Shown piece by piece: positions 28,912 through 31,634 of a stretch of 64,000 nucleotides of DNA; position 1 is the stretch's first letter; each line of letters begins with the position of its first letter. The notes beneath the pieces are model-generated. The model was not told the origin of the DNA. It did no database searches and was given only the letters and a program-made list of their open reading frames with translations. A program made the translations under genes and the position numbers. Where the stretch lies: assembly GCA_902826215.1 (NCBI GenBank), contig CADEDY010000001.1:186001-250000 (forward strand). The letters run 5' to 3'. This DNA is from an uncultured Bacteroidota bacterium. Lineage in GTDB: Bacteria; Bacteroidota; Bacteroidia; Flavobacteriales_F; PHOS-HE28.

Positions 28912-30453
28912 CTACAACTTCCGCAGCAGCCCCCGCAGATCCACTTTCTCACTCACGATGCCATCCAGGTCTGCGATGGCCACGCGCTCTTGCAGCATCG
29001 TATCGCGGTCGCGGATGGTCACCTTGTCGTCGGTAAGGGTGTCGTGGTCCACGGTGATGCAATAAGGCGTACCGATCGCATCCTGCCGGCGGTAGCGCTT
29101 GCCGATGCTGTCCTTGTCGTCATATTGGCAGTTGTGGTCCAGCTTCAGGCGATCGATGATGGCGCGGGCTTTCTCCGGTAGGCCATCCTTCTTGATCAAT
29201 GGCAACACGGCCACTTTCACGGGGGCCAACGGAGCGGGGATCCGCAACACCACGCGCTCTTCGCCATTCTCCAGCTTCTCTTCTTCGAACGCCGCGCTCA
29301 GGATCGCGAGGAACATACGGTCGAGGCCGATCGACGTTTCCAGCACGTAGGGCACGTAGCTCTCATTGGTCTCGGTATCGAAGTAGCGCAGCTTCTTGCC
29401 GCTGAACTCCTCGTGCTTGCCGAGGTCGAAATCGGTGCGGCTGTGGATGCCCTCGAGCTCCTTGAAACCCATGGGAAACTTGAACTCGATGTCGCAGGCG
29501 GCGTTGGCGTAGTGCGCCAGTTTGATATGGTCGTGGAAGCGGTAGTTCTCCACGGGCATGCCCAATGCGCGGTGCCAGGCCATGCGCTTCTCCTTCCAGG
29601 TCTCGTACCATTCCAGCTCGGTGCCGGGCTTGATGAAGAACTGCATCTCCATCTGCTCGAACTCCCGCATGCGGAAGATGAACTGACGCGCGACGATCTC
29701 ATTGCGGAAGGCCTTCCCGGTCTGTGCGATGCCGAAGGGCAGCTTCATGCGCGCGCTCTTCTGCACGTTCAGGAAGTTCACGAAGATCCCTTGTGCCGTT
29801 TCCGGGCGCAGATAGATCGTTGCGCTCTCGCCGCTCACGCTGCCGAGCTCGGTAGCGAACATCAGGTTGAACTGGCGCACCTCGGTCCAGTTGGCGGTGC
29901 CGCTCACCGGGCACTTGATCTCCTCATCGATGATCAGTTGGCGCACAGCCTCTAGATCGTTCGCTTCCAACGCGGCCTTCATCTTGCCTTCCACCGCATC
30001 GATCCGGTCCTGGCTGCGTTTCACATTGGGGTTGGTCGCCCGGAACTGCCCCTCGTCGAAGGCATCGCCGAACTTCTTCTTCGCCTTCTCGATCTCCTTG
30101 TTGATCTTGTCGGCGTACTTGGCCATGTGGTCCTCCAGCAGCACGTCGGCGCGGTAGCGCTTCTTGCTGTCCTTGTTGTCGATCAAGGGGTCGTTGAAGG
30201 CATCCACGTGACCGCTGGCCTTCCACACGGTGGGGTGCATGAAGATCGCCGAGTCGATGCCCACGATGTTCTCGTTGAGCTTCGTCATGGCCTCCCACCA
30301 GTAGCGGCGGATGTTGTTCTTTAGTTCCACCCCATACGGACCATAGTCGTAGGTGGCGCTGAGACCGTCGTAGATCTCGCTGCTTTGGAAAACGAAGCCA
30401 TACTCCTTGGCATGGCCGATAAGGGTCTTGAGGCGGTCTTCTTGGTTGCTCAT
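28912..30453 (-). CDS. glyQS: Glycyl-tRNA synthetase, single-chain class II type
   Basis: 513 residues from MSNQEDRLKTLIGHAK at 30453. The homodimeric (eukaryote-like) enzyme, not the alpha2beta2 form. Class II motifs: GLSATYDYGPYGVELKNNIR, PETAQGIFVNFLNV and GIAQTGKAFRNEI (motif 2 region), and SIGLDRMFLAILSAA (motif 3). The C-terminal anticodon-binding domain follows, with LKLDHNCQYDDKDSIGKRYR. A cytoplasmic essential enzyme. Confidence 0.96.
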   Translation of the reverse strand: MSNQEDRLKTLIGHAKEYGFVFQSSEIYDGLSATYDYGPYGVELKNNIRRYWWEAMTKLNENIVGIDSAIFMHPTVWKASGHVDAFNDPLIDNKDSKKRYRADVLLEDHMAKYADKINKEIEKAKKKFGDAFDEGQFRATNPNVKRSQDRIDAVEGKMKAALEANDLEAVRQLIIDEEIKCPVSGTANWTEVRQFNLMFATELGSVSGESATIYLRPETAQGIFVNFLNVQKSARMKLPFGIAQTGKAFRNEIVARQFIFRMREFEQMEMQFFIKPGTELEWYETWKEKRMAWHRALGMPVENYRFHDHIKLAHYANAACDIEFKFPMGFKELEGIHSRTDFDLGKHEEFSGKKLRYFDTETNESYVPYVLETSIGLDRMFLAILSAAFEEEKLENGEERVVLRIPAPLAPVKVAVLPLIKKDGLPEKARAIIDRLKLDHNCQYDDKDSIGKRYRRQDAIGTPYCITVDHDTLTDDKVTIRDRDTMLQERVAIADLDGIVSEKVDLRGLLRKL

Positions 30454-30529
30454 GGTCGTGTGCGAACGCCTTGGAAAGCTTTGGCGACGCGGGCGCAAAT
30501 GTAGCTGGGAGCCTTTAGCACTGGAATGT

Positions 30530-30557
30530 GAGCTGCGAGCCATGAGCCACGAGCTCT
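30530..30557. repeat. GAGCC/CGAGC-rich repeat on the right flank of glyQS
   Basis: GAGCTGCGAGCC followed by ATGAGCCACGAGCTC, about 15 nt before the 3' end of the four-helix-bundle gene. The same word set recurs at 30962-31023 on the other side of that gene. Confidence 0.6.
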
Positions 30558-30570
30558 GGGACCGGCGACT

Positions 30571-30924
30571 TCAAGCGCTCAGCTTGGCCATGAAGGCCAT
30601 GAGCATTTTCTGCTCTTCATCGATGGCACTAAGTAGTTCGGTCACTTCCGTCATTGGGGCCCATTTGCGCCTTTGCAGCGTGAGCGTTTGCGTTTCGAGT
30701 TCGAACGCTGAACCAAGTGCGATCTCCATGTATCTGCGCTTGTCCTTCTCGCTCCGCCGTGAATTGCCTTCGGCGATGTTCGAAGCGATCGAAATGGCAG
30801 CTCGAGTGGACTGCCCCTTGAGTTCGGCAACCTTCTGCCAGGGTTGTTCTTCGTAAAGGTCGAATACCCTATCCGTGATGTCCATGGCCTTCTGCCAGAT
30901 CAAGAGTTTCTTGAAGTCTTTCAT
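30571..30924 (-). CDS. Four-helix-bundle protein (23S rRNA intervening-sequence type)
   Basis: 117 residues, the usual size. Family markers are FKKLLIWQKAMDITDRVFDL near the start, LKGQSTRAAISIASNIAEG in the middle and YMEIALGSAFELETQTL. The family is named after proteins encoded in 23S rRNA intervening sequences; free-standing copies are very common in Bacteroidota and form small helical oligomers of unknown role. Both flanks carry related GAGCC-type repeats, which suggests that gene and repeats travel together. Confidence 0.92.
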   Translation of the reverse strand: MKDFKKLLIWQKAMDITDRVFDLYEEQPWQKVAELKGQSTRAAISIASNIAEGNSRRSEKDKRRYMEIALGSAFELETQTLTLQRRKWAPMTEVTELLSAIDEEQKMLMAFMAKLSA

Positions 30925-30961
30925 CTCATACGGGTTTCTTGTGAAGATAGCTGCGAGCGGT

Positions 30962-31023
30962 GAGCCGTGAACTGCGAGCCACGAGCCGAGCGGCTAGAGC
31001 TCAAGGCTCGCAGCTCGCGGCTC
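30962..31023. repeat. Imperfect inverted repeat next to the four-helix-bundle gene
   Basis: A 19-nt left arm at 30962-30980 (beginning GAGCCGTGAACTGCG) and right arm at 31005-31023 (ending CGCGGCTC) are complementary at all but two positions. An inner AGCC/GGCT stem lies between. It shares the GAGCC-CGAGC words with 30530-30557. Confidence 0.7.
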
Positions 31024-31040
31024 GTAGCTTTGCTCGCCGA

Positions 31041-31634
31041 ATGATCGAACACCGCAACACCCTCATCAGCGAAGACATCTTCGAGAAACGCTTCGTGTGC
31101 GACCTGAACGCCTGCAAGGGTGCCTGTTGCGTGGCGGGGGAGAGCGGAGCACCGCTGGAGCCGGACGAGGCCGAACAGTTGAAGACGTTGTGGCCGAAGA
31201 TCAAGCCCTACATCCCGGAGAAGGGGCAGCGGGCCATTGATGCGCACGGCGTGAGCGAGGTGGACGACGATGGCGACCTGGTGACCACCTTGGTGGAAGG
31301 GCGCGGCGAGTGTGCCTTCACCGTGTTCGACGAGAAGGGCATTGCCTTGTGCGGCGTGGAGAAAGCGTGGAAGGACGGCGCGATCCCCTTCCGCAAGCCG
31401 ATCAGTTGCCACCTGTACCCGATACGCGTGGTGAAGCTGAACGAGCACGATGGCCTCAACTACCACAAGTGGCCGATCTGCAAACCGGCCTGCGCCTGCG
31501 GTGCGAAGTTGGATGTGCCCGTGTACCGTTTCCTGAAGGACGCTTTGACCCGTGCGTACGGTGAAACGTGGTACGCCGAGCTGGAGGAGATCCACACCGC
31601 TTGGGTGGAGGATCGCGCGACCAAGGAGAAGTAG
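31041..31634 (+). CDS. DUF3109 family protein with cysteine cluster
   Basis: 197 residues from ATG 31041; the in-frame extension upstream would translate the inverted repeat and is rejected. The N-terminal CDLNACKGACCVAGESGAP is a YkgJ-like Cys cluster. Further cysteines occur in GECAFTVFDEKGIALCGVEKAW, KPISCHLYPIRV and WPICKPACACG, enough to bind zinc or an Fe-S cluster. Function unknown. A TAGCTTTG box at 31025-31032 fits the -7 promoter element but leaves a leader of only a few bases, so the mRNA may be nearly leaderless. Confidence 0.88.
   Translation: MIEHRNTLISEDIFEKRFVCDLNACKGACCVAGESGAPLEPDEAEQLKTLWPKIKPYIPEKGQRAIDAHGVSEVDDDGDLVTTLVEGRGECAFTVFDEKGIALCGVEKAWKDGAIPFRKPISCHLYPIRVVKLNEHDGLNYHKWPICKPACACGAKLDVPVYRFLKDALTRAYGETWYAELEEIHTAWVEDRATKEK

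Follow-up and report, generated by a model that had tools for sequence, protein, structure and literature searches.

S23 genes with inverted heptamer arrays in Bacteroidota: a probable family of mobile palindromic elements

S23 proteins are long-known products of the rRNA intervening sequence (IVS) and have no known function. Here we describe an S23 (four-helix-bundle) gene and its repeats from an uncultured Bacteroidota bacterium (Flavobacteriales_F; PHOS-HE28), located in a 64,000-nt stretch of contig CADEDY010000001.1 (assembly GCA_902826215.1, positions 186,001 to 250,000) that is referred to throughout as the window. In the 23S rRNA IVS of Coxiella and Leptospira, an S23 open reading frame (ORF) likewise lies between inverted arms. 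For Coxiella, a section of PMC4990558 describes an S23p ORF, a 28-bp stem, tandem GACAGAT heptamers just upstream of the S23 start and excision by RNase III; part of the same paper presents the Xanthomonas S23p as a homopentamer forming a toroid. The window element has the S23 ORF and the stem-forming complementary ends of an IVS, with complementary arrays on both sides of the gene and a strong hairpin upstream, but it resides between the glyS and DUF3109 genes rather than inside a 23S rRNA gene. It further differs from the IVS in three respects: purifying selection acts on the protein, the arrays are widespread and have units specific to the protein, and there are dispersed solitary hairpins, some of them within protein-coding genes.

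Several other described systems share some of these properties. REPIN-RAYT systems combine dispersed hairpins with a gene flanked by the same repeats, as is the case here, but the gene associated with our hairpins encodes a four-helix-bundle S23 protein, not a Y1 (HUH) transposase, and the arms are tandem heptamers. Palindromic elements of Rickettsia and miniature inverted-repeat transposable elements are short palindromes found in frame in metabolic genes (a passage of PMC10969869); the elements described here are distinguished by arms composed of tandem 7-bp arrays, a cognate small protein gene, and the presence of different families at one site in sister species. In-frame insertion with empty orthologous sites, characteristic of such palindromes, is seen for our solitary hairpins, not for the window copy. 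Tandem intergenic heptamers, as at the S23 genes, include the TAACTGA repeats of Beggiatoaceae, Cyanobacteria and Bacteroidetes (PMC4679880, in part), in the main text of which neither "S23" nor "four helix" occurs. Avd of diversity-generating retroelements belongs to a protein family related to PF05635 (a passage of PMC10053308), but no reverse transcriptase was found in the window genome, in which template and variable repeats were not searched for. A figure panel of PMC10910872 that deals with the associations of CRISPR adaptation modules has "23S rRNA IVP" among its domains, and an excerpt of PMC5787105 includes an S23 gene among differentially expressed genes. No open-licence PMC paper was found that ties free four-helix-bundle genes to 7-bp arrays.

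We favor, with a probability of roughly two in three, a family of mobile palindromic elements that has a cognate S23 protein and would include the 23S rRNA IVS as its rRNA case. Judged by the open-licence literature, this looks like an undescribed family of mobile sequences. We set S23 heptamer elements apart as a new class because the rRNA location of the IVS, the transposase as the associated gene of REPIN-RAYT and, in the window genome, the reverse transcriptase of diversity-generating retroelements were each tested for and not found; on a stricter view, they could be a broad new variant of the IVS.

Heptamer arrays at S23 genes

The S23 gene of the window (30571..30924, minus strand) is intact and encodes a protein of 117 aa that belongs to TIGR02436 (98.8 bits; cut-off, 24) and PF05635 (100.5 bits; cut-off, 33.8) and is related to 2GSC (E = 7.8e-13), an entry with five chains. 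Comparison of the window genome (G000) with genome G011 yielded a dN/dS ratio of 0.058, indicative of purifying selection; among the 13 S23 pairs reported, synonymous sites were saturated in eight, and the other four gave 0.07-0.19. The repeats at the gene are built of a degenerate 7-bp unit, GAGCYNN, with three variable bases after GAGC. In gene orientation, a GAGC array of five units (31030-30996) and a GCTC array of about six inverted units (30989-30948) precede the gene, and another GCTC array, of four inverted units (30557-30530), follows it. The outer array (30996..31030, minus strand; AAGCTAC, GAGCCGC, GAGCTGC, GAGCCTT and GAGCTCT as read on that strand) and the inner array upstream of the gene (30948..30989, plus strand; TAGCTGC, GAGCGGT, GAGCCGT, GAACTGC, GAGCCAC and GAGCCGA) constitute, in gene orientation, the 5′ and 3′ arms, respectively, of a complete hairpin (30946..31030, minus strand) of the same type as the dispersed solitary hairpins. 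The downstream array (30530..30557, plus strand; GAGCTGC, GAGCCAT, GAGCCAC and GAGCTCT) is inverted in gene orientation.

The outer and inner arrays fold into a long hairpin (−50.3 kcal/mol, z −4.5), in which inverted repeat arms at 30962-30986 and 30999-31023 extend over 25 nt with 84% complementarity and two mismatches in the first 19 nt; a 517-nt fold gives only partial pairing between the two ends. Exact copies of GAGCTGCGAGCC are found at 30530-30541 (plus strand) and 31005-31016 (minus strand), and with at most two mismatches the window contains 19 matches, compared to 9.3 (sd 3.1) in shuffled sequences, none of 100 shuffles reaching 19. A first-pass annotation of this DNA had pointed to related words on both sides of the gene and to 19-nt arms with two mismatches. 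The match counts and the fold confirm this, except that the repeats on the two sides are tandem 7-bp arrays and not simple terminal repeats. At 20/28 lag matches, the period-7 array at the S23 gene is the sole one in the window, with none in 10 shuffles. No Rfam family reached its gathering score; the seven weak matches were to six microRNA models and one Pseudomonas small RNA.

S23 genes generally show the same architecture, so the window repeats belong with the gene. The window genome encompasses seven S23 genes, the flanks of which carry arrays with units that differ from gene to gene, and S23 genes occur in 44 of the 45 genomes of the genus (among the matches listed). Across 36 genus loci, seven from the window genome and 29 from others, 28 of the 30 strict period-7 arrays lie no more than 300 bp from the S23 gene, and period 7 or 8 is found within this distance in 21 (strict) or 28 (relaxed) of the loci. 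In a set of 127 unique genus loci, from which L003 and L386 were removed as duplicates (hence the absence of the second S23 gene of contig C23) and in which L233-L237 are not included, 100 have an array, on both sides in 68, solely upstream in 14 and solely downstream in 18, and 27 have none.

A multi-phylum set comprised the best 80 S23 loci of a longer list obtained with one conserved peptide as the query (1.30 Mb with flanks). These loci come mostly from Bacteroidota, and also from Acidobacteria, Chloroflexi, Cyanobacteria, Proteobacteria in the wide sense, Clostridia and others. Within 250 bp of S23, there are 85 strict period-7 arrays in 55 loci (2.16 per kb), compared to 23 at 5-10 kb (0.039 per kb), a 55-fold enrichment; for period 8, the respective values are 11 arrays in nine loci and 0.010 per kb. 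No period from 4 to 13 other than 7 and 8 shows enrichment (0-2 near arrays for each of periods 4-6 and 9-13), and a period-14 signal is a multiple of period 7. Period 7 or 8 occurs near the gene in 61 of the 80 loci under the strict threshold and in 68 under the relaxed one. Flanks inverted across the S23 gene (local score of at least 16) were detected in 60.5% of the 76 loci included in this comparison and in 4.9% of 1500 other-locus pairs (p = 1e-27); direct flank similarity was seen in 13.2% and 1.6%, respectively. By contrast, 26 DUF3109 control loci without S23 yielded no strict and one relaxed period-7/8 array near the gene, and none of the 22 control loci covered by the flank comparison has inverted flanks. 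Thus, period-7/8 arrays concentrate at S23 loci. That repeats might be found equally far from such genes holds in part, as 33 of the 166 strict period-7 arrays found across the 80 loci are at least 2 kb away, yet the concentration at S23 genes is strong.

The array unit follows the S23 protein subfamily, also at different sites. Among 100 genus loci with arrays (L233-L237 not included), the fraction of different-site pairs with arrays in common rises with protein identity, from 1-3% below 40% identity to 6% at 40-50% (119 pairs), 17% at 50-60% (72 pairs) and 50% at 60-80% (50 pairs); the outer-flank test of site let masked bases match each other, so that some different-site pairs will have passed as same-site. 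By eye, the AGCC/GGCT core is kept in the clade of window-type S23 proteins from 100% down to about 50% identity, and the other bases drift. One S23 subfamily is associated with 8-bp GATCAGAN arrays; among the matches listed, this octamer is present in 39 of the 45 genus genomes and its reversed control in none.

Could the arrays be ordinary heptanucleotide slippage repeats in operon gaps, where S23 genes are harmless passengers? Variable array lengths and the 0.04 arrays per kb that persist even at 5-10 kb from S23 would fit such an origin. However, slippage leaves the 55-fold concentration at S23 genes unexplained, as well as the other period at GxxExxY genes (see below), the tracking of the protein by the unit at different sites, the inversion of the arrays across the S23 gene and the lack of strict arrays near the gene in the 26 control loci. 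This explanation is already strongly disfavoured, and we regard it as scarcely credible.

Solitary hairpins and their turnover at a mutase loop

Units of the S23 arrays also build solitary hairpins that are scattered through the genomes, some of them inserted in frame in conserved genes. The GAGC pattern occurs in 23 of the 45 genus genomes (here and below, GAGC counts are among the matches listed), and at the places listed, a part of the total, paired arms have GAGC first and GCTC second. At least six GAGC matches were found in 5/5 genomes whose window-type S23 has GAGC/AAGC arrays compared to 5/40 others. Twenty hairpin sites, hand-picked from those with both arms listed and hence not random, were fetched; the hairpin cores measure 46-79 bp, and 12 of the 20 lie in frame within long open frames of conserved genes (these counts and the 5/5 and 5/40 were read by hand from tables). 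The host genes encode methylmalonyl-CoA mutase or its relatives, with hairpins at several positions, a DUF2400 protein, and proteins whose domains we read as those of Mfd and DnaE. A Pfam family was matched for all eight hairpin-bearing proteins tested. The window genome itself carries two GAGC inserts inside long open frames. At two places (G017:C96:1558-1603 and G034:C1:1300400-1300452), a perfect tandem GAGCGCA fits the search pattern and looks like an ordinary simple repeat.

In the mutase, one loop harbours a hairpin in most of the genomes compared. The mutase fragment is present in 36 of the 45 genomes. The comparison covers the 26 in which it gave a single long match, genomes with split or short matches being left out; 25 of these matches span all or nearly all of the query and one reaches residue 215. 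A hairpin occupies the same loop in 24 of the 26 genomes, the loop being empty in G003 and G019, and by eye these hairpins fall into seven unit families (GAGCC, GAGTGGC, TGTCCGATGTCTTA, GGTCTATG, GAATGGC, GTTGTC and GAGTCGT types). On the mutase gene tree, built without the insert, the family label requires 16 changes (least possible, 7; shuffled mean, 16.9). A value as low was obtained with 67 of 200 shuffles, and the hairpin family differs between well-supported sister species. Because the label shows no phylogenetic order and sisters differ, slow drift under inheritance fails for this loop, which leaves overwriting of hairpins in place or repeated hits on the loop. A match to a sampled S23 array of the same genome was found for 13 of the 24 mutase hairpins, compared to 15.0% of other-genome comparisons; these figures include L234-L237, before the addition of which they were 12/24 and 14.7%.

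Hairpins dispersed in this manner resemble REPINs and might be non-autonomous transposons moved in trans by a transposase or a reverse transcriptase (RAYT/Y1, or a retroelement as with Avd in diversity-generating retroelements). Y1 transposases are indeed present in 33 of the 45 genomes, and PF05635 resembles Avd, according to a passage of PMC10053308. However, reverse transcriptase (PF00078) was detected in only 6 of the 45 genomes, with no match in the window genome, and no Y1 match was obtained in the hairpin-bearing genomes G004, G008, G039 and G040. Reverse transcriptase and Y1 were the only families searched for (in 45 genomes, several of them incomplete), and neither is a consistent partner of the hairpins. 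This distribution rules out either enzyme as the general driver and renders movement of this kind very unlikely.

Orientation, regulation and a possible mode of spread

In the 80-locus set, S23 genes are co-directional with the upstream neighbour in 69 of 74 loci, with the downstream neighbour in 71 of 76 and with both in 63 of 70, compared to 479 of 843 other ORFs of the same loci (p = 1.7e-9); neighbours here are ORFs of at least 100 aa, not annotated genes, and 70 of the 80 loci could be classed by both. The window locus departs from this pattern on one side, where DUF3109 is divergent. The arrays are polar as well. G exceeds C in 43 of 54 outer upstream arrays (the reverse in 7) and in 9 of 61 outer downstream ones (the reverse in 47); in the genus set, the corresponding numbers are 65 and 13 of 82 upstream and 12 and 72 of 86 downstream. 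This polarity holds over different units.

Such sense orientation in operon-like places raises the prospect that S23 is a local and global regulator that binds its own units in transcripts or DNA, with the solitary hairpins as a regulon of binding sites that selection alters whenever the specificity of the protein shifts, no mobility being required. The match between S23 protein and unit, the purifying selection on the protein and the mutase loop, which retains a hairpin while the unit changes as a conserved regulatory site would, are in line with this proposal. On the other hand, some ten units in two arms would have to change jointly between sister species, hairpins reside within the coding frames of unrelated genes, and several genomes have the hairpin family without a close S23. 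We therefore consider regulation without mobility unlikely, if still worth weighing.

Under the mobile-family reading, the window would contain one S23 heptamer element, consisting of an S23 gene and inverted, hairpin-capable arrays of about 4-6 degenerate 7-bp units (8-bp in some subfamilies). The S23 ring, a homopentamer in a solved relative, may recognise the tandem units of its own arrays, with about one subunit for each unit. Together, the copy with the gene and the solitary hairpins would make up one mobile family, the solitary ones presumably relying on S23 protein in trans. Copies located, as most are, in co-directional gene pairs might be tolerated or processed in transcripts, as RNase III does with the 23S rRNA IVS.

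Several points weigh against a mobile family with a cognate S23 protein. Recognition of the units by S23 is deduced from sequence, as is the route of movement. Genomes G004, G006, G008, G016 (an assembly 73% complete) and G040 contain 10-32 GAGC matches each, with no S23 more than 41% identical to the window protein; the link between GAGC hairpins and S23 is strong, but these five genomes have hairpins without a close S23. Likewise, 11 of the 24 mutase hairpins match none of the S23 arrays sampled from their own genome, not all S23 loci being sampled. Arrays are missing, even at the relaxed threshold, from 27 of the 127 genus loci and from 12 of the 80 others. As the latter set was picked with one conserved peptide as the best of a longer list, it represents one large S23 subfamily. 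The number of units per array peaks at 5 in a lenient count (42 of 119 arrays) and at 4 in a strict one, so that we put it at "about 4-6"; given this broad peak at 4-5, a count of precisely five that would match the pentamer is rejected. Duplication of at least 24 bp of non-array sequence at the element edges was found at one of 207 S23 loci, many with only about 400 bp of flank. Finally, G·U mismatches do not exceed A·C mismatches, either between the two flanks (85 vs 100 and 243 vs 264) or in local hairpins (12 vs 22 and 71 vs 57), and a selected sense-strand RNA stem is thus unsupported despite the polarity of the arrays.

The glyS/DUF3109 site, a parallel gene family and significance

In the window, the S23 gene is followed by the co-directional glycyl-tRNA synthetase gene glyS (28912..30453, minus strand; start read at MSNQEDRL) and preceded by the divergent DUF3109 gene (31041..31634, plus strand); both names come from the first-pass annotation. 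TAnnTTTG words at 30496-30503 (minus strand) and 31025-31032 (plus strand), which we take to resemble the −7 box of Bacteroidota promoters, face glyS and DUF3109, respectively, and the latter overlaps the last unit of the outer array. S23 is found at this site in G000, G011, G033, G019 and G035, whereas spacers of 176-225 bp with neither S23 nor a detected 7/8-bp array separate the two genes in G043, G044, G002, G013, G017 and G034. Gene and repeats are thus not fixed at the locus. S23 is missing from the site in the closest relatives by DUF3109 identity (G026, G007, G043 and G014), and this identity, where measured, is lower in the carriers, so that loss and transfer of S23 are inseparable here. 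By eye, the gene-less spacers differ throughout between the ends of both genes, which makes insertion edges unreadable and rejects the site as an empty-site comparison. Accordingly, the proposal of a non-autonomous mobile unit is upheld as far as the repeats go with the S23 gene and the hairpins are dispersed and replaced between species, whereas the clean excision between repeats that was expected at gene-less sites is unsupported. The spacers of G018 and G042 (L092 and L101) contain, without an S23 gene, putative toxin-antitoxin-like ORFs preceded by GTGATTGG/CACCAATC words; in other relatives (L076 and L093), the spacer ORF is, we assume, AbiEii-like. By eye, the S23-less spacers of L075, L078, L083, L088 and L100 carry another hairpin-like stretch with ATGGAC-type words.

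On contig C23 of the window genome (L001/L003, G000:C23:143-761), the start of the neighbouring gene is present on both sides of an S23 element as identical 53-bp copies, and a second S23 gene adjoins. This element, the one case of edge duplication among the 207 loci, may be a recent insertion.

The same architecture was observed at genus genes of the GxxExxY family (PDDEXK_3, PF13366; L183-L212), with units of about 9 bases of the CACAGAGGC and CTCTGTGTC types. Inverted flanks were found at 28 of 30 of these loci, compared to 15.4% of other-locus pairs, and period-9 arrays near the gene at 9 of 30 (relaxed); none has a period-7 array near the gene.

The protein TRAP reads triplets, a parallel for a ring protein that reads units subunit by subunit. 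A broader and distinctly more tentative possibility than the mobile family itself is that S23 elements are transposase-less mobile palindromes, in which a ring protein reads tandem units one subunit each, with a private 7- or 8-base word per subfamily, and hairpins colonise operon gaps and protein loops and can be overwritten by other families; GxxExxY nucleases with their 9-base arrays might then be a second, independent case.

The private repeat word of each S23 subfamily provides a concrete candidate substrate on which these proteins can be tested. S23 elements offer an origin for many unexplained bacterial heptamer repeats and hairpins. They also point to a way in which protein loops arise in frame and to a type of mobile element whose associated gene is no recombinase. 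A class of such elements would also account for the Coxiella-type heptamers at the S23 start.
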